Assembly (NCBI GenBank): GCA_020850315.1
Contig: JADZEY010000020.1
Coordinates: 85,618 to 139,909 of the forward strand
DNA: 54,292 nucleotides
Origin: Armatimonadota bacterium
GTDB lineage: Bacteria; Bacteroidota; Ignavibacteria; OLB7
Direction of reading: 5' to 3'
Shown here in pieces: positions 4,846 to 26,295 of this stretch. The stretch's first letter is position 1; every line of letters starts with the position of its first letter. A program made the position numbers and the translations under genes. Below the pieces are notes generated by a model. The model was not told the origin of the DNA, did not search any database, and saw only the letters and a program-made list of their open reading frames with translations.

Positions 4846-7800
4846 TTAGCTTGCCCCCACAAACTTCACATTATCGCGCCCGTAGATTGCCCGCAAGCCT
4901 TCTATCAAATTTGGAGTTGGGGTGATGGTGTAGCGGCGCGACACCCACCGGCCCACCAGCGACCGTTGTTCATCATACACCCGGAAGATACACTGAAGCT
5001 CACCTTGATTGTTTTTGAACAGGTCTAGAGTTCTGTCCACGGCATCTTCCGGAACTACGTCAAGCTGCACGTTCACCGCCAGGGCGTTGGCAAACCGGCT
5101 TCGCGCTTGGGCAACGGGGATGATGTCGTCAACGATAATTTTGATTCCATCTGCGCCGTTCATCTCGGCTTTGCCGACCACAAACACAATCTCACCCTCG
5201 GTAATTTTTTCGCCGTGAGCGCGGTAGGCATCGCTCCAGAAAATGCACTCGGCTTTTCCGGTGAAGTCCTCGATGGTGGCAAAGGCGATGCGGTTCTCAC
5301 GCTTATCCAGCTTTGTGCGGATCGCGGTCACGATTCCGCAGGCCCGCACTGGGCCGTCGAATTTGGCATCTTCCTCCACTTCCCCCAGCGATAATTGCGA
5401 GAAGGCCTCCACCTCGGCGGCGTATTCCTGCAACGGGTGGCCGCTCACGTAGAAATTTAGCACCTCCTTTTCGCGGCGGAGTTTTTCCAGTTTCCCCCAG
5501 TCGTCAATGGTTGGAAGCGCGGGTTCGGGAAGCGCGCCGCCGGTGTCGTCGTTGGCATCGGCAAACAGCGAGGCCATGCCGCTGGCTTCGCTGCTGGCGC
5601 AGGCGGCGGCGTACTGCATTGCTGCATCAATCGCCATGAAGCATTGGCGGCGGTTGGGGTGGACGGAATCGAACGCGCCACTAACCACCAAACTTTCCAG
5701 CAAGCGTTTGTTGATAAGCGTGTTGCCAGCAAGCCGTCGGGTGAAGTCGAAAATGGAGGTGAACGCGCCGGATTTTTCCCGCTCCTTCAGGATTGCAGCC
5801 ACCGCGCCTTCCCCCACGTTGCGGATTGCTGCCATCCCAAACCGGATTCCGGCATCCACCACGTAGAAGTCAATCATGGATTGGTTCACATCCGGCGGCA
5901 GCACGTTGATGCTGAACTTCCGGCATTCATCAATCAGCTTCACCACCTTCGCAAGATCGTTCGCTTCGGCGGTCATGTTGGCTGCAAGAAACTCTGGGGC
6001 GTAGTTCGCTTTCAGCCACGCGGTTTGGTAGGCAAGGTAGCTGTAGGCAAGGGAGTGGCTGTTGTGCGAAACAATGCCGTTTGCCATAAAGTTGAGCGGG
6101 CCGTTCGGGGCCATCTCAATATCGTAGGTCATTGCGGGGTTGCAGGGGGTGATGGAGACTATTGGGTCGCCATTTTCCACATGCTCCAACTGAAGGCGGT
6201 GGCGAACGATTGCTTGATAATCTTCCGGTGTGACGACCGCATATGGAAGGTCGCCATACTTGTCGGCAAAGTAGGCCGACGAACGATCCATGCCGTCCAT
6301 TTCCCAGTACAGGCCAGCAAAATAGAAATCACACACCCGGCCGTTGGGAAGCGGCTTGTGCATCTGGAACTCAATCCCTTGCTCAATCAACCACTCGCAC
6401 ATATCCCGCTCGTGCTGGCTTGCGCACCACATTCCGTTGCTGGCAATGGAACACCGCCCAAACCCTGGGCCGGAGTCGTAGCAGGAACGAACGCTAAGAA
6501 GACTACGCTCCATGTGGCGTTGCCGGAACTCTGGGTCAGTTGCCCATAATTCTTTCAGCCGCTGGTGCATTGCTGCAACGGCGTGCCGGGTAAGGTCAGG
6601 ATACAGCGAGTGCATACGGCGCATATGTGCAGCTTTTTCCTGGTAGGGTCTTGCTGCTTGGTACTGCTTCATCCGAATGCTTGCACGCCTGCGTTGTTCT
6701 TGGCCTTGATTAATGGTCGTCATCGTTTGGCGGCGGGCTATGCGCATTGCCGGGGTGATACGTGGGGCTGTGATAAGCTCCGTCCCGACGGCCATTTGGT
6801 CAATTCGCAGGTAGCCTTCAGTGGTCAACAAGCGATGTTCGGGGGTGGCACGGATAACCCTTCCGGAAGCGGTCTGGATGCGCAGCAACGGCTTCACTCC
6901 GGTCTTCACGATGTTCTGCACAGCGTGCTGGCGTATTTCGCCATCGGGCCACATTGCCATCAGGTGTGTTGGCTGGGCCCGGTAGGCGGCTGATAAGGAG
7001 ATACTCCGTCCGTCGGGAAGCTGGACGCGGGTTTGTGCATGGGCGCATTTATTGAACCCGTAATCGGCAAACTTCACCATCATCTCCCAGATTTCATCGG
7101 CAGTTTTTTTGTCAATGCCGTTCTGGGCGCACCCCTGAAAGTATGTCCCCTTCATCTCCTCCATGTACTTGATCTGCTTTTTCCCCATGGCGCGCCGCAG
7201 GTTGTCGGCCTGGGCAAGGGTGAAGCCGCCAAGCTGCTGGGCAATCTGCATGATCTGTTCCTGGTACACGCAAATCCCGTAGGTCTTCCCCAGTATCGGC
7301 TGCAACTTGTTGTGCAAGTAGGTGATCGGCTTGCGGCCCCATTTCCGCTCGATGAACTCAGGGATGTTCTCCATCGGCCCCGGGCGGTACAGGGCGTTCA
7401 TGGCGGTTAGGTCCTCCAGCGAACTTGGCTTCAAATCCTTCAGATATTTCTGCATCGGCACCGATTCGAACTGGAAGACGGCAGTGGTTAGCCCGCGCCC
7501 AACAAGCTCGTAGGTCTTGGGGTCCTCAAGGGTGATCTCATCAATGTCAATCGTGATGCTGTGCCGCTGCTTGATTAACTCCAACGTGCGGTCAATAATC
7601 GTTAGGGTTCGCAGCCCCAGGAAGTCCATTTTCAGCAGCCCGGCGTCCTCCAGATAGTTCATGGTGTACTGGCTGGCAAGGCCGCTGTCGGGGGTTTTGT
7701 ACAGGGGGATGTAGTTCTCCAAGGGCCCCGGCGCAATCACCACCCCGGCTGCGTGAAGCGAGGTGTTCCGTGCCATTCCTTCCAGCACTTGGCTGTACTC

Positions 7801-9309
7801 AATCAGTTTCCGGATCTGCGGGTCGTTGCTCTCCTTCACCCACCGAAGCTCCGCGTTCTCCAGTGCCTCGGCAATGGATTGCACCCGCCCAAACTTCACG
7901 GTGATTTTATCGGTGATGCTGGTGATGGTGGAAAGGGGAACGCCCAGCACACGGCCAACGTCTTTCAGCACCGCACGCGAGGAAAGGGTTCCGAAGGTGA
8001 TGATCTGGGCCACTGCGTCGTGGCCATATTTATCTTTCACATAGTCAATCACCAACTCCCGTTTGTCGTCGGCAAAATCAATGTCAATGTCGGGCATCGA
8101 GACGCGATCTGGGTTCAGAAACCGCTCGAACAGCAGGTCATATTTCAGCGGGTCAACGTTGGTGATTCCCAGCGCGTAGGCCACCAAACTTCCCGCCGCG
8201 CTGCCGCGTCCGGGGCCAACGCTAACGCCACGGTCGCGTGCGGCCTGGATAAAATCTTGCACAATCAGGAAGTACCCGCTGTACCCCATTCGGGTGATAA
8301 CCTCAAGCTCGAACTCGGTGCGGTTTTTGGCCTCATCATCCACCTTCACCGGATACCGCTGCTCAATTCCCCGCCACGTAATTTCCCGCAAGTAATCATC
8401 CAACGTTGCCGAACGCGACTCTGGCGGGATCGGGAAGTTCGGCATGAAGAACTCATGCGGAAGCTCCAGATTGCACTTCTCGGCAATGGCAACCGTGTTC
8501 TCGATAGCCCCCGGAAAATGCCCCAGCAGCTGGGCCATCTCGTCGGCAGTCTTGAAGTAGTAGTTGGTGGTTCCGTACCGAAGCTCCGACTCCACATCAA
8601 TTTTCGCCCCGGTCTTGCTTGCGTCGCGGATATGCAGCAGCACGTTGTGGGCAATCGCGTGTTCGCGGCGGATGTAGTGGCAATCGTTGGTGGCCACCAG
8701 TGGAATCCCAAGCTCCTGGGCCAGCCGTGGCATTCCCTCCAGCACCGGGCGGTCAACCGGGATTCCGTGATCCTGGACCTCCAGATAAAAATCTTCGCCA
8801 AACAACTCCCGATACCAGATTGCGGCCTCGCGTGCGGCATCGTAATTCTGGTTCACCAAATGCGCCGAAACCACGCCGCCAGCACATGCCGACAGCGCCA
8901 CCAAACCTTCGTGATTCTGCAGCAGCAGTTCGCGGTCAATCCGGGGTTTGTAGTAGTAGCCTTCGGTGTGGGCACGGCTGGTTAGGCGGTTCAGCGTCTG
9001 GTATCCACGGTAATCCTTTGCCAGCAGGATCAGGTGGAAATAGTTGCGGGTTTTCTTGGCGGCGTTGGTCCCAACACGGTCGGTCCGCAGCCCGTCGGCA
9101 ACGTACAGTTCGCAGCCAATAATCGGCTTAATCCCCGCTTTTTTCGCCTTTTTGTAGAACTCCATGTTCCCAAAATTGACCCCGTGATCGGTCAAGGCAA
9201 CGGCGCCCATGTTGTTCTCGCCAGCGGACTTGATAAGCCCATCGGGGGTGCAAGCACCGTCCAGAAGTGAGTAGTGAGTATGGTTGTGGAGATGGATAAA
9301 TTCAGGCAT
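4846..9309 (-). CDS. dnaE: DNA polymerase III alpha subunit (DnaE), intein-containing precursor
   Basis: The replicative polymerase catalytic subunit. The 1,487-residue precursor becomes about 1,158 residues after removal of a 329-residue intein (precursor residues 755-1083), matching the normal DnaE length. The order is: PHP domain from the N terminus (HLHNHTHYSLLDG), polymerase catalytic block PDIDIDF with D407, D409 and D411, the conserved GFNK|SHS block split by the intein, then the tandem helix-hairpin-helix region, the OB-fold (GPVRACGIVTAIRTK) and a short C-terminal domain. It must splice to be functional. Transcription runs toward aspC. No frameshift is seen in either extein half. Confidence 0.96.
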   Translation of the reverse strand: MPEFIHLHNHTHYSLLDGACTPDGLIKSAGENNMGAVALTDHGVNFGNMEFYKKAKKAGIKPIIGCELYVADGLRTDRVGTNAAKKTRNYFHLILLAKDYRGYQTLNRLTSRAHTEGYYYKPRIDRELLLQNHEGLVALSACAGGVVSAHLVNQNYDAAREAAIWYRELFGEDFYLEVQDHGIPVDRPVLEGMPRLAQELGIPLVATNDCHYIRREHAIAHNVLLHIRDASKTGAKIDVESELRYGTTNYYFKTADEMAQLLGHFPGAIENTVAIAEKCNLELPHEFFMPNFPIPPESRSATLDDYLREITWRGIEQRYPVKVDDEAKNRTEFELEVITRMGYSGYFLIVQDFIQAARDRGVSVGPGRGSAAGSLVAYALGITNVDPLKYDLLFERFLNPDRVSMPDIDIDFADDKRELVIDYVKDKYGHDAVAQIITFGTLSSRAVLKDVGRVLGVPLSTITSITDKITVKFGRVQSIAEALENAELRWVKESNDPQIRKLIEYSQVLEGMARNTSLHAAGVVIAPGPLENYIPLYKTPDSGLASQYTMNYLEDAGLLKMDFLGLRTLTIIDRTLELIKQRHSITIDIDEITLEDPKTYELVGRGLTTAVFQFESVPMQKYLKDLKPSSLEDLTAMNALYRPGPMENIPEFIERKWGRKPITYLHNKLQPILGKTYGICVYQEQIMQIAQQLGGFTLAQADNLRRAMGKKQIKYMEEMKGTYFQGCAQNGIDKKTADEIWEMMVKFADYGFNKCAHAQTRVQLPDGRSISLSAAYRAQPTHLMAMWPDGEIRQHAVQNIVKTGVKPLLRIQTASGRVIRATPEHRLLTTEGYLRIDQMAVGTELITAPRITPAMRIARRQTMTTINQGQEQRRRASIRMKQYQAARPYQEKAAHMRRMHSLYPDLTRHAVAAMHQRLKELWATDPEFRQRHMERSLLSVRSCYDSGPGFGRCSIASNGMWCASQHERDMCEWLIEQGIEFQMHKPLPNGRVCDFYFAGLYWEMDGMDRSSAYFADKYGDLPYAVVTPEDYQAIVRHRLQLEHVENGDPIVSITPCNPAMTYDIEMAPNGPLNFMANGIVSHNSHSLAYSYLAYQTAWLKANYAPEFLAANMTAEANDLAKVVKLIDECRKFSINVLPPDVNQSMIDFYVVDAGIRFGMAAIRNVGEGAVAAILKEREKSGAFTSIFDFTRRLAGNTLINKRLLESLVVSGAFDSVHPNRRQCFMAIDAAMQYAAACASSEASGMASLFADANDDTGGALPEPALPTIDDWGKLEKLRREKEVLNFYVSGHPLQEYAAEVEAFSQLSLGEVEEDAKFDGPVRACGIVTAIRTKLDKRENRIAFATIEDFTGKAECIFWSDAYRAHGEKITEGEIVFVVGKAEMNGADGIKIIVDDIIPVAQARSRFANALAVNVQLDVVPEDAVDRTLDLFKNNQGELQCIFRVYDEQRSLVGRWVSRRYTITPTPNLIEGLRAIYGRDNVKFVGAS
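6061..7047 (-). other. Intein in DnaE with Vsr/EDxHD-like homing nuclease domain
   Basis: A 329-residue in-frame insertion. Splicing motifs are complete: Cys1 (start CAHAQTRV), the block-B TPEH with T68 and H71, a block-F region containing YDIEM, the C-terminal FMANGIVSHN with penultimate His and last Asn, and Ser as first C-extein residue. The middle (about residues 115-185) is basic and helical, like a DNA-binding spacer. Residues 215-270 hold a small nuclease-like core: Glu in QHERDM, D240 in CDFYF, and E249-x-D251-G in YWEMDG. This resembles Vsr/DUF559-type nucleases rather than the usual LAGLIDADG type. The insertion point is GFNK|SHS, four residues downstream of the classical split-DnaE site (Y|CFNKSHS) of cyanobacteria. 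Confidence 0.93.
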
Positions 9310-20883: not shown

Positions 20884-21096
20884 TTCTTGGGGTCGCCCAT
20901 TGACCCTTAGTGCTTGCCCCTATTCGCCACTCGACATTCCAAGATTCCGATGCGCCGAAAAAATTTGTTTGAACAACCGAATCCTCGGTTGTAAGTTGCC
21001 CGCCGATTGTTCCCGCCGTTCCTGCACCTGCCCGTGTGATTGCCCGCCAGCGATCACAAGTTCCCTTATCCATATTTTTACGAGGCTGTTGCTGCC

Positions 21097-24000
21097 ATGC
21101 CGTTGCCGAAGTATGATGCTGTGGAGCTGCTTCATCAAGGCCCAAATGCTGTGGTACAGCGTGGGGTGCGCCGTTCCGATGGAGCCAGCGTTATCTTGAA
21201 ATCGGTTGCTACCGACTATCCAACTGCCGAACTCCTTGAACGGTTCCGGCATGAGTTCACGTTGCTTCAGCAGTTCCACCACCCCCAGATTATTCGTCCG
21301 ATTGAGCTTGAAGAATCGGGAACCTCCATCACTATCATCCTGCACGACGACCACGCCCAACCATTGATAGAGTGGTTGGATGGGAAGCCTTGCTCGGTTG
21401 ATGATTTTTTGGAAATAGCCACCAGCATCGCCGATGCCTTGCACGCAGTCCATGCTGCTGGGGTGATCCATAAGGACATCAACCCTGCTAACATCGTCAT
21501 CGCCCCCGACGCTCACCAAGCTATCCTGATTGACTTTGGCATTGCTTCGGCGGTGACGGCGGCCCACAACGCTGCAAACCCCGATATCATCAAGGCGACG
21601 CTGGCTTACGTTGCGCCGGAACAAACGGGGCGGATGAACCGCACGGTGGACCACCGCTCCGATCTTTACTCACTTGGGATCACGTTCTACCAGATGCTGA
21701 CCGGGCGGCTTCCGTTTGCCACAATGGATCGGCTTGAGTTAATCCACAGCCACATTGCCCGCCTTCCCGAAATCCCACATCAACTTCGCCCAGCCATCCC
21801 CACGGTTGTCTCCAACATCGTGCTGAAGCTGATGGCCAAAAGCGCCGACGAACGCTACCAAAGCACCGCTGGTCTCCGCGAAGACCTGGGCCGCTGCCGC
21901 CAACAATGGGAACGCGACGGCCAGATTGAACCCTTCCCGCTGGGCCAGCACGACATTGCCGACCAGTTCCAAATTTCTGATAAGCTGTATGGCCGCGAGC
22001 GTGAGGTGGAGCAGCTGCTATCGGCGTTCCAACGCACCGCTGCCGGGGGGACCGAACTGCTGCTGATTGCTGGCGGATCCGGGGTTGGGAAGTCGCGGTT
22101 GGTGAACGAAGTGCAGAGGCCGATTGTGGAGTATCGGGGATATTTCCTGAACGGCAAGTTCGATCAGTTCAAACGGAATATCCCCTTCAGCGGGTTGCAT
22201 GCTGCCTTCCGCGAACTGATCCGGCAGCTTATGACCGAAAGCCCCGAGCGGGTGGCGGCCTGGCGCGAGCAGATCAATCGCGCGCTTGGCTCGGTGGGCC
22301 AGGTAATTGTTGAGGTGATACCGGAGTTGGAGCTGCTTGCCGGGGCGCAACCTCCGGTTCCCGAACTCCCTTCGGAGCAGTCGCGCAATCGCTTCAACCA
22401 AGCGTTCCGCAGGTTCGTTCAGCTGTTCTGCCGTCCCGAACATCCCCTCTGCATCTTTCTTGATGATCTTCAGTGGGGCGATGCCGCAACGCTGGCATGG
22501 ATCGAGGAGGTGTTGTCGGACCGCAGCTACGGAAGCCTGCTGCTGATTGGTGCGTACCGTGCCAACGAGGTCAGCGCGTTGCATCCGTTGACGGCCATGC
22601 TGGATCGGCTTGCTGCGCGGCAAAGCCTTGTTTCCACGCTTTCGGTGAAGCCGCTGGACTCCGCCGCCGTTGGGGCGTTCATCGCCGACACGCTATCGCA
22701 ACCCCCTGCTGATTGTTCGGATCTTGTGGAGCTGCTGTTTGGCCGAACCGAGGGGAACCCGTTTCACCTGACGCAACTGCTTGCCGCGCTGCATGAAGAT
22801 GGTGTGATCCACTTCGACCGCCAGCACCACCGCTGGCAGTACGACATTGGTGGGGTGCGGAACTGGCGCATCACCGATACCATCGTTGATCTTCTGACCG
22901 AGCGGATCGAGCGGCTTACCCCGCTGGCACAGTCGGCGTTGCAGGTGGCATCCTGCATCGGCAACAGCTTTGACCTTGAGATGCTGGTGTTGGTGATGGG
23001 GATCAGCCGCGCCCAGTTGCGGCCGCTGTTGGCCGAAGGGGTGGAGGAAGGGTTGATTGTTGAGCATTTTATCTGGAGCGGAGAACATCGCCAGGCCTAC
23101 CGGTTCCTGCACGACCGTGTGCAGCAGTCGGCACACTCCTTCCTGAATGCCCAACAGGTTCAGGAACTGAGGTTGCAGATTGGGCGGCAGATGCTTTTGG
23201 CTTCAACCAACCCCGAAGAGGAAGACCACCTGTTCGAGATGGTGGATCACCTGAACATGGCCGCACTGCTGATAACGGACCCTGCCGAATGTTCGCGGCT
23301 TGTTTGGCTGAACTTTGCCGCCGCACGCCGTGCACGGAACGCAACCGCCTACCAGCTTGCGCTGCATCACGCCGTGGCGGCAATGGATCTGGTCCCGTCG
23401 ATAGCATTTCAAGGCCAATCCGAAACGACGGCCCAACTGCTTGCCGAACGCGCCGAGTGCGAGCATCAGTGCGGGAATAATGCCGAGGCTGAGGGGTTCT
23501 TCCGGCGCGCGTTGCAGGCCGCGCAAACCACCGATGGGAAAATCACCATCTGCGAACAGACCATCCATTTCTACACCAATCTTTCCCGCTTTGCCGATGC
23601 CTACGCCACGGCGCGCTCCGGTGCGCAGTTGATCGGTTACTCACTCCCCCCCAAATTCATCCCCCCGCTGTTCCTTGCCGATCTTGCCCGGGCGCGAATG
23701 ATGATGCGTGGCCGCAGGATCGAGGATATTGTCAGCCTTCCAACCATGCACCAACCCCGCCAGCTTCAGTTGATGAAACTGATGGGGGCCGTTGCCAAAG
23801 CCGCCTACCAGATCCGCCCGGAACTGTGCGTTGCCATTGCCACAAAAATGGTGATCGAATCGCTCCGCCACGGCAACGCGCCGGATAGCGTTATCGGCTA
23901 CTTGGCCTACGGGGTGATCTTCAGCGGGGCGGTGTTGGCCAACCATCCGGTGGGGCACCGCTACGGGATTGCCACGCGGGCATTGATTGACCGCTTCAGC

Positions 24001-26295
24001 AACGAACGCCAAAAAGCTGAGGTCTATTTTGTTGGCGGATATTTCGGAACATCGTGGTTGGAACCCGCCACCGAATCGGAACGATTGTGGGAGCTTGCCT
24101 ATCAATCGGGGGTGGATGTTGGCGACCTGTTCCATGCCGGATGTGCGTGCAGCGGGACCGCGCAAAGTTTGCTGATGCGTGGCCACCCGTTCGATGACAC
24201 CCTGAAAACCACCACCCGATTTCTGGACTTCCTTGACCGTGTGGGCAATCGCGAGTCGGCAGGGGCGGTGCGTGGCGTGGTGCAGGCAATCAAAAATCTG
24301 CGCGGCGAAACTGAATCGAACGCCTCGTTCGGCGATGCCAACTTCAACGAGGCAGCATATCTGGCAGAGCTTTCCACCTACGGGTCGCGCCATTTTGCGC
24401 ACTACTACTTCATCAACAAATCGGCCACGCTCTATCTGTGGGGCCACCACCAGCAGGCGTTCGATCTTGCCGCCGGCGCGCTCCCGTATTTGAAAGATTC
24501 CGTGGGGATGCTGCATGGTGCCGAGCATCGGTTCTACCACGCGCTTGCGGCGGCGGCACTGGCGGGGGCCGCCACCCAGCATCGCGCAGCGCGGCTGCGG
24601 TTGGCGCGTTCCACCGCAAAAAAACTCCAACGCTGGGCGGCTGTTTGCCCAAACAACTTCAAGCATAAATCCTTGCTGTTGCAGGCCGAATTGCAGCGGG
24701 CAACGGGGGATCAATCAGGGGCAATCAACCTGTACAACCAAGCCATCGAGGCGGCTGCGGAGTTCGGGTACTTGCACATCCAAGCATTGGCAAACCAGCG
24801 CTGTGCCGAACTTCACCAGCAAAGCGGTGCGCGGCGGATTGTGCGGTATCATCTTCGCGAGGCTGAGTACTGGTATCGCCGCTGGGGAGCAACCGCTATT
24901 GCAGATCGGTTGATCCAACAGCACCCAGAACACTTGGCGCAATCGGCACGTTCCGACGGAGCAACAACAACTACTACCACAATCACGAACCCCATCACCA
25001 CCACCGGTGGCGCGCTTGCGCAATCGTTGGATATGATGACCGTGATCAAAGCTGCCGAGGCTATCTCCGGCGAGCTTCGGCTCCACTCGCTGCTTCGCCG
25101 ATTGATGATGACCGTCAGCGAGAACGCCGGGGCGCAGCGGGCCCTGTTGTTGCGTCCGCACCAGGGGGGGTGGCAACTGCAAGCCGAGTTCGAGGTTGCG
25201 GCCGGCAACCTGCGAATGCCGGAACTGGAGATGATGAGCGACCAAGAACATCTGCCACAAAGCATCATCCATTTTGCATCCCACAGCAAGCAACCGGTGG
25301 TGCTGAACAGTGCCGTTTCCGATAACCAGTTCGGCCACGATCCGGCGGTGCAGCGGCGCAAGCTCCGCTCGGTGCTCTGCTTGCCATTGCTGAACCAGGG
25401 GAACTTGAGCGGGGTGATCTATCTGGAAAACAACTTGACCGATGGAGCCTTCACCGAACAGCGCGTTGGCTTGCTGAAGCTGCTGAGCGGGCAGATTGCC
25501 ATCTCGATTGATAACGCCTTGCTGTATGATACTCTGGAAGAAAAAGTGGCCGAACGCACCACCGAGATCATCAAGCAGCAGCAGACCAGCGAGCGGTTGC
25601 TGGAGAACATCCTCCCGCGCGAGACGGCGCAGGAGCTGAAAGCCACGGGCCACGCCCGCGCCCGCTCCTACGGGAAGGTTTCCATCCTCTTCACCGACTT
25701 CGTGAACTTCACAGGGATTTCGGCGCAGCTGGATCCCGATGAATTGGTGCAGCAGCTGGACACCTGCTTCCGTGCGATGGATGAGATTACCGCGCGCCAC
25801 AACATGGAGAAAATCAAGACCATTGGCGATGCCTTCATGTGTGCCGGCGGAATCCCCAACCCGAACCACACCAACCCGATTGATGCTGTGCTATCTGGCT
25901 TAGCGATTGTTCGGATGCTGGACGAACTACGCCAGCAAGCCGAGCAGGAAGGAAAGTCGTTCTGGCAGTGCCGGGTTGGCATCCACACCGGACCAGTGAT
26001 TACCGGGGTTGTGGGGAAACGCAAATTCGCCTACGACATCTGGGGCGATTCGGTGAACGTCGCCAGCCGGATGGAATCCAACGGCCAAGCCGGGCGGGTG
26101 AATATCTCGGCAGATACCTACCAGCACGTCAAAGATTTTTTTGCTTGCACACATCGCGGCAGCCGGCAGGTGAAAGGGAAAGGGGAGATTGAAATGTACT
26201 TCGTGGATGGAATCCTGCCGGAACTTTCGGTGGGCGGAAAAGGGGAGGAACCGTCGGAAGAATTCTTGCAAAGACTTGGTAGGAATGTGGAATGA
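21097..26295 (+). CDS. Ser/Thr kinase - AAA ATPase - helical repeat - GAF - adenylate cyclase fusion
   Basis: A 1,732-residue cytoplasmic signalling protein. Domains in order: protein kinase (about 5-265; K35, D127 and N132 in HKDINPAN, D146 in DFG, APE motif); AAA/STAND-type ATPase (about 295-620; Walker A GGSGVGKS with K332, Walker B CIFLDDLQW); a long helical, TPR-like region (about 700-1260); GAF (about 1313-1480); a short coiled coil (EEKVAERTTEIIKQQQ); class III cyclase (about 1527-1705). In the cyclase the metal Asp residues D1534 and D1578, substrate residues K1572 and D1647 (adenine-specific), N1654 and R1658, and a KGKGE lysine are all present, predicting active cAMP synthesis. The ATG at 21097 sits just before the kinase; 21040 is possible. 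Confidence 0.9.
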   Translation: MPLPKYDAVELLHQGPNAVVQRGVRRSDGASVILKSVATDYPTAELLERFRHEFTLLQQFHHPQIIRPIELEESGTSITIILHDDHAQPLIEWLDGKPCSVDDFLEIATSIADALHAVHAAGVIHKDINPANIVIAPDAHQAILIDFGIASAVTAAHNAANPDIIKATLAYVAPEQTGRMNRTVDHRSDLYSLGITFYQMLTGRLPFATMDRLELIHSHIARLPEIPHQLRPAIPTVVSNIVLKLMAKSADERYQSTAGLREDLGRCRQQWERDGQIEPFPLGQHDIADQFQISDKLYGREREVEQLLSAFQRTAAGGTELLLIAGGSGVGKSRLVNEVQRPIVEYRGYFLNGKFDQFKRNIPFSGLHAAFRELIRQLMTESPERVAAWREQINRALGSVGQVIVEVIPELELLAGAQPPVPELPSEQSRNRFNQAFRRFVQLFCRPEHPLCIFLDDLQWGDAATLAWIEEVLSDRSYGSLLLIGAYRANEVSALHPLTAMLDRLAARQSLVSTLSVKPLDSAAVGAFIADTLSQPPADCSDLVELLFGRTEGNPFHLTQLLAALHEDGVIHFDRQHHRWQYDIGGVRNWRITDTIVDLLTERIERLTPLAQSALQVASCIGNSFDLEMLVLVMGISRAQLRPLLAEGVEEGLIVEHFIWSGEHRQAYRFLHDRVQQSAHSFLNAQQVQELRLQIGRQMLLASTNPEEEDHLFEMVDHLNMAALLITDPAECSRLVWLNFAAARRARNATAYQLALHHAVAAMDLVPSIAFQGQSETTAQLLAERAECEHQCGNNAEAEGFFRRALQAAQTTDGKITICEQTIHFYTNLSRFADAYATARSGAQLIGYSLPPKFIPPLFLADLARARMMMRGRRIEDIVSLPTMHQPRQLQLMKLMGAVAKAAYQIRPELCVAIATKMVIESLRHGNAPDSVIGYLAYGVIFSGAVLANHPVGHRYGIATRALIDRFSNERQKAEVYFVGGYFGTSWLEPATESERLWELAYQSGVDVGDLFHAGCACSGTAQSLLMRGHPFDDTLKTTTRFLDFLDRVGNRESAGAVRGVVQAIKNLRGETESNASFGDANFNEAAYLAELSTYGSRHFAHYYFINKSATLYLWGHHQQAFDLAAGALPYLKDSVGMLHGAEHRFYHALAAAALAGAATQHRAARLRLARSTAKKLQRWAAVCPNNFKHKSLLLQAELQRATGDQSGAINLYNQAIEAAAEFGYLHIQALANQRCAELHQQSGARRIVRYHLREAEYWYRRWGATAIADRLIQQHPEHLAQSARSDGATTTTTTITNPITTTGGALAQSLDMMTVIKAAEAISGELRLHSLLRRLMMTVSENAGAQRALLLRPHQGGWQLQAEFEVAAGNLRMPELEMMSDQEHLPQSIIHFASHSKQPVVLNSAVSDNQFGHDPAVQRRKLRSVLCLPLLNQGNLSGVIYLENNLTDGAFTEQRVGLLKLLSGQIAISIDNALLYDTLEEKVAERTTEIIKQQQTSERLLENILPRETAQELKATGHARARSYGKVSILFTDFVNFTGISAQLDPDELVQQLDTCFRAMDEITARHNMEKIKTIGDAFMCAGGIPNPNHTNPIDAVLSGLAIVRMLDELRQQAEQEGKSFWQCRVGIHTGPVITGVVGKRKFAYDIWGDSVNVASRMESNGQAGRVNISADTYQHVKDFFACTHRGSRQVKGKGEIEMYFVDGILPELSVGGKGEEPSEEFLQRLGRNVE

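Follow-up and report, generated by a model that had tools for sequence, protein, structure and literature searches.

Does the intein that interrupts dnaE in an Armatimonadota bacterium (GTDB lineage Bacteroidota, Ignavibacteria, OLB7) still spread by homing, and what kind of nuclease would drive it? The locus lies in a stretch of 54,292 nucleotides analysed as a whole (contig JADZEY010000020.1, positions 85,618 to 139,909), hereafter the window, to which all coordinates refer.

Host Gene and Splicing Domain

The gene dnaE (4846..9309, minus strand) encodes the DNA polymerase III alpha subunit together with an in-frame intein, 1487 aa in all and about 1158 aa once spliced. The Pfam domains PHP, DNA_pol3_alpha, DNA_pol3_finger and HHH_6 are found in the protein. 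In translation it divides into an N-extein (7048..9309, minus strand; DnaE residues 1–754, ending in KFADYGFNK), an intein of 329 aa (6061..7047, minus strand; DnaE residues 755–1083, from C1 to N329) and a C-extein (4846..6060, minus strand), which starts with SHSLAYSYLAYQTAW and supplies the nucleophile Ser+1. Translation, profile matches and the empty site of a sister species agree on the limits of the intein. The earlier note had placed the insert at 6061–7047 with a GFNK/SHS junction, and this proved exact, the 329 aa lying between KFADYGFNK and SHSLAYS. Elsewhere in the window, positions 21040–26295 encode a 1751-aa protein that by eye is a fusion of serine/threonine kinase, ATPase, GAF and adenylate cyclase.

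The N-terminal splicing region comprises intein residues 1–96 (6760..7047, minus strand), as judged by TIGR01445 and structure matches, and the C-terminal region residues 293–329 (6061..6171, minus strand), as judged by PF14890 and alignment to DnaB inteins. Pfam Intein_splicing is matched with 40.6 bits (cut-off 35.8), and over residues 1–75 TIGR01445, the N-terminal splicing model, exceeds its own cut-off; the C-terminal splicing model falls slightly below its cut-off (15.1 vs 15.6). Among solved structures, the splicing domains of DnaB mini-inteins come nearest, and residues 20–98 are matched by intein structures of both DnaB and RecA.

The suggestion that the splicing residues are all present stands for C1, T68-P-E-H71, H328-N329 and S+1, the residues of a class 1 intein, and for D309, but not for the block F histidine of the "HNF" motif, which is Leu318 in the alignment to DnaB inteins. 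Leucine occupies this position in 6/6 nuclease-bearing inteins (the window intein and the five relatives described below) and is therefore a family trait rather than a fresh defect. The block F histidine is missing from some active natural inteins, and its absence is compatible with class 1 membership. Judged by these residues and profiles, the window intein is probably a class-1-type, active splicing element.

Insertion Site, Empty Alleles and Relatives

The search for intein-free dnaE in close relatives, proposed in the earlier note, uncovered an exact empty site within the same genus. DnaE of a sister species (G404), the other one sampled in this genus, is 96% identical over 250 aa and lacks the insert; it reads ...TACGGGTTCAATAAA/AGCCACTCC... 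at this point, with 279/300 and 280/300 identical bases in the two flanks. Two other genomes of the same family (G400 and G128) likewise encode DnaE without an insert. In the latter, the intein-free protein (L040) reads GFNKCHSAPYAY, with Cys replacing Ser at +1.

Relatives were sought in 85,000 species genomes with degenerate patterns, and tblastn with the actual sequence confirmed the matches. The patterns were derived from an alignment (A1) that includes two invented variant rows and served for pattern-making alone, not as evidence. Two relatives, from a Chloroflexi MAG (L087, JAKAIY010000090.1) and an Eremiobacterota MAG (L088, JASHOG010000130.1), are 74% and 73% identical over the core; a profile search of the Chloroflexota class added three more (L096, L097 and L098). 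The five relatives, four from Chloroflexota genomes and one from Eremiobacterota, are all DnaE inteins at GFNK/SHA; L088 ends at a contig edge, with the C-terminal junction alone visible. The nuclease is thus not peculiar to the window intein and belongs to a small family common to three phyla. Since the whole arrangement is kept in five homologues and the sister DnaE precisely lacks the insert, its occurrence is not due to chance.

The nuclease is absent elsewhere in the searched genomes of the window's family, and the phage, plasmid and viral collections yielded no homologue. Two carriers of the nuclease intein (G688, with L092 and L093; G689, with L091 and L094), from Chloroflexota and Eremiobacterota, possess further inteins in ribonucleotide reductase, aconitase-like and DnaB genes, some with LAGLIDADG-like parts.

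Other inteins use the same site. Among 395 genomes of the phylum, five inteins lie exactly at GFNK/SHS (L016, L020, L023, L025 and L029), and C-terminal junctions of the same site also occur in L015, L026 and L027. Viral contigs, scanned with a pattern, also contain inteins at this DnaE position (L068–L075), some with HNH-like inserts; one of the contigs (L069, from 9765 onward) has an intein of ~409 aa with an odd middle rich in Q, G, R and S. The cyanobacterial split DnaE intein (Ssp, Npu) sits four residues earlier, at Y/CFNK. The site is thus distinct from the cyanobacterial one, as first proposed, but it does not mark an unusual insertion lineage, given the other inteins found there in the phylum and in viral contigs. 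A literature search found no paper naming an intein allele at GFNK/SHS.

A PD-(D/E)XK Nuclease Domain

Between the splicing halves lie a helical linker (residues 97–192; 6472..6759, minus strand) and a nuclease domain (residues 193–292; 6172..6471, minus strand). The linker is basic (19 K+R vs 8 D+E), which fits DNA contact, its presumed role. It contains a faint internal repeat of ~37 aa, which does not reach significance in the window sequence (44/300 shuffles as high). Tandem DNA-binding repeats in this part, suggestive in the consensus (12/300 shuffles as high) and not in the window sequence, were rejected.

Intein residues 97–292 fall outside every Pfam, NCBIfam and PHROG family. Neither LAGLIDADG nor HNH nucleases, the latter also known in inteins, are matched by the intein or its middle part in these three collections, which agrees with the earlier view that the nuclease belongs to neither group. 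Searches with the single nuclease sequence were negative in Pfam, PHROGs, phages, plasmids, viral contigs and the remaining genomes of the class; weak matches (L032–L036, L100) were set aside because of short or broken frames.

The residues D240, E249, D251 and G252 are located as originally described. In the alignment of six inteins the motifs S-x-x-E213, C-D240-F-Y and Y-W-E249-M-D251-G-M-D-R are invariant. They include the acidic residue of helix 1, E213 (6409..6411, minus strand), a candidate catalytic aspartate, D240 (6328..6330, minus strand), and E249-M-D251 (6295..6303, minus strand). When ten relatives are aligned with the six inteins, E213, D240, F241 and E249 remain invariant across all 16 sequences.

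The PADLOC profile PDC-S69 is matched by 6/6 nuclease cores (best E 3.6e-4), and HEAT_CxxC_PD-DEXK by 4/6. Comparison with helicase-linked PD-(D/E)XK domains by hhalign gave an E value of 5.5e-5 over S-x-x-E, D-F and E, against 0.16–0.42 for reversed decoys (0.16 for this comparison). Searched in the window's phylum, PDC-S69 leads to PD-(D/E)XK domains within UvrD-like helicases and to DUF559 proteins. By profile comparison, the intein nuclease is most clearly related in sequence to PDC-S69-type PD-(D/E)XK domains linked to helicases. PADLOC lists PDC-S69 as a candidate defence family; its C-terminal PD-(D/E)XK domain also occurs in UvrD-like and other helicases of the window's phylum (L078, L079, L080–L082, L085), and it is this domain that the intein nuclease matches.

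DUF559 (PF04480) has no Pfam match in the six members and scores poorly in hhalign (probability 1%, E 0.053), yet D-F-Y and E-x-D-G are aligned. Vsr (PF03852) was rejected as a family assignment, with no Pfam match, an hhalign probability of 0.6% (E 0.09) and a Foldseek match to 1cw0 at E 2.2 (prob 0.06).

A model of the whole intein from six alignment rows was poor (pLDDT 38.5) and was dropped for the fold search; its order of elements in the nuclease region is the same as in a model of the nuclease alone. The latter was built from 16 alignment rows, including distant helicase-linked rows and five DUF559 rows, and reached pLDDT 80.7 (core >90) and pTM 0.73, with the topology a-b-b-b-a-b-a. 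Its a-b-b-b-a-b core, with acidic residues placed on helix 1 and on the second and third strands, is that of the PD-(D/E)XK superfamily.

In the PDB, Foldseek ranks the catalytic domain of I-Bth0305I first and second (E 2.7e-3, a modest value, and 1.1e-2; prob 1.00, TM 0.48–0.55), followed by the DUF559-type 3hrl, with Vsr far down; matches among viral models are DUF559, Vsr-like and endonuclease I proteins. The model therefore shares the fold of the I-Bth0305I catalytic domain, with the reservation that its alignment held DUF559 rows. It is safe to state that residues 193–292 are predicted to adopt a PD-(D/E)XK fold nearest the I-Bth0305I/DUF559 branch. The initial description of the nuclease as Vsr/DUF559-like is accurate for the fold, whose best solved match is the Vsr-like I-Bth0305I, but not for sequence membership, which extends to neither Vsr nor DUF559.

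A more restrictive form of the homing reading developed below, compatible with it, would make the nuclease a strict EDxHD (Vsr-like) enzyme, a diverged member of the I-Bth0305I family. I-Bth0305I is its best structural match in the PDB, and the mixed profile A6, which has DUF559 rows, finds 3r3p at E 2.6e-6; however, once these rows are removed (A7), T7 endonuclease I becomes the top PDB match, at 0.027, and 3r3p drops out of the list. The EDxHD family is defined by its conserved histidine, which lies with a following Asp past the third strand. Neither is conserved there: no His within residues 252–288, past the E249-x-D251 strand, is invariant in the six inteins, and columns 256 (S, D, H, T, D, E) and 262 vary. 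We consider strict EDxHD membership rather unlikely.

Selection on the Nuclease and Spread Between Phyla

Between the Chloroflexota members, the nuclease has a dN/dS of ~0.04–0.14, with dS near saturation; the ratio resembles that of the splicing parts and is below that of the linker. Invariant columns make up 64% of the nuclease vs 28% of the linker. These measures indicate strong purifying selection on the nuclease, and such a pattern of conservation and dN/dS is to be expected of an active homing endonuclease.

These figures bear on the possibility that the element is a splicing intein with a decayed nuclease remnant that no longer homes, its distribution reflecting past spread. Homing endonucleases often degenerate after fixation, as the homing cycle describes, and no intein-free partner was detected here within the carrier species itself. 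Nevertheless, E213, D240, E249 and D251 are invariant in six inteins from three phyla, the nuclease equals the splicing part in conservation and greatly exceeds the linker, and the genus also contains an empty allele, all of which makes decay improbable.

The nuclease intein is patchily distributed. It occurs in 1/391 genomes of the window's class (the window's own), in 4/47 genomes of one Chloroflexota class (4/350 in Chloroflexota) and in 1/149 genomes of the Eremiobacterota group. The window and Chloroflexota inteins are 62.6% identical, compared with 42.6% for the whole exteins; the Eremiobacterota intein piece is 70% identical to the window and 78% to Chloroflexota, whereas the C-exteins are 31–39% identical overall and 31–34% against that of the window. 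Inteins are normally under less constraint than DnaE, and transfer is therefore the best explanation for inteins that are more alike than their exteins. The splicing domains of the nuclease-bearing inteins, of which the five with complete splicing halves were included, group in a single clade (99/100) that excludes inteins of the window's phylum at this site. Vertical descent from an ancient DnaE ancestor, with loss in most lineages, would explain one insertion site across three phyla but is highly improbable in view of the patchy distribution, the empty sister site and intein identities of 63–78% set against the C-extein values, the reverse of what co-descent predicts.

Proposed Homing Mechanism

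We propose that the window element is very probably a homing intein that is active and spreads horizontally, and that it belongs to a small family, apparently undescribed. In its sequence, this is supported by the exact boundaries, the sister empty allele, same-site homologues in two other phyla, the greater similarity of inteins than exteins, the single intein clade and purifying selection on the nuclease. Seated in the DnaE catalytic block at GFNK/SHS, the class-1-type intein would excise itself from the DnaE precursor using Cys1 and Ser+1 as nucleophiles, with cyclisation of Asn329. The basic stretch (residues ~97–192), likely to bind DNA, and the PD-(D/E)XK nuclease (193–292) would together form a homing endonuclease between the splicing halves. 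This putative metal-dependent enzyme may cleave dnaE alleles that lack the intein, where the GFNK-SHS codons are uninterrupted; repair templated by the interrupted copy would then carry the intein into the empty allele, and homing of this kind could drive transfer among distant bacteria.

More tentatively, and with some doubt, we suggest a new family of intein homing endonucleases, characterized by a fused PD-(D/E)XK domain with an E...D...E-x-D-G site and no EDxHD histidine, which may target the most conserved DnaE block and hence have crossed at least three phyla.

As the fused nuclease is invisible to Pfam, such inteins may be filed as lacking an endonuclease and their mobility missed. Spread at one site between phyla in an essential gene, combined with a sister empty allele, offers a clean test case for homing, and a nuclease directed at a near-universal bacterial dnaE sequence would serve as a rare cutter.

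Comparison with Known Systems

Homing endonucleases are usually listed as six families including EDxHD, which is mostly found in phage group I introns (PMC3943268, PMC3984707, PMC6083498). Many intein nucleases are LAGLIDADG enzymes (PMC8966425), while HNH, GIY-YIG, Vsr-like and PD-(D/E)XK nucleases accompany introns and inteins (PMC12768974); a DUF559/EDxHD gene has been linked to a Thermosynechococcus intein survey (PMC9403480). Our literature search, which fell short of key primary papers, found no fused cis-splicing DnaE intein with such a nuclease in three phyla; this absence is weak evidence of novelty.

I-Bth0305I, the prototype EDxHD/Vsr-like enzyme (PDB 3r3p; PMC3943268, PMC6083498), resembles the window nuclease in its role in homing, proposed for the latter, its PD-(D/E)XK-related fold, the order of an S/T-x-x-E helix followed by strands with D and then E, and a C-terminal catalytic domain attached to a basic stretch. 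However, it comes from a phage group I intron, whereas the window nuclease is fused in frame within a bacterial DnaE intein, lacks the EDxHD histidine and shows no sequence similarity to it detectable from the intein nucleases alone. DUF559 nucleases such as NGO0050 (3hrl), the second-best PDB match, share the order of elements and the D-F-Y ... E-x-D-G core, but the histidine of their DG-x-x-H motif is Arg255 here, and the Pfam family is not matched. PDC-S69-type domains of UvrD-like helicases (PADLOC), the best relatives by sequence profile, are helicase parts rather than intein parts, with E-H past the strand where the intein nuclease has E-x-D-G.

The other inteins at GFNK/SH[SA], bacterial and viral, share the insertion point and splice junctions; unlike the window intein, they are mini-inteins of 138–176 aa or larger elements with HNH-like or unclassified inserts, and their splicing domains fall outside its clade. 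The cyanobacterial split DnaE intein occupies the same conserved block of the same host gene but is split and carries no nuclease. "Fractured gene" split inteins, reportedly described by Dassa et al. in 2009, are said to have free-standing Vsr-like endonuclease genes between their halves, mainly in phages. They likewise pair an intein with a Vsr-like homing endonuclease, whereas here the two are fused and reside in a cellular gene.
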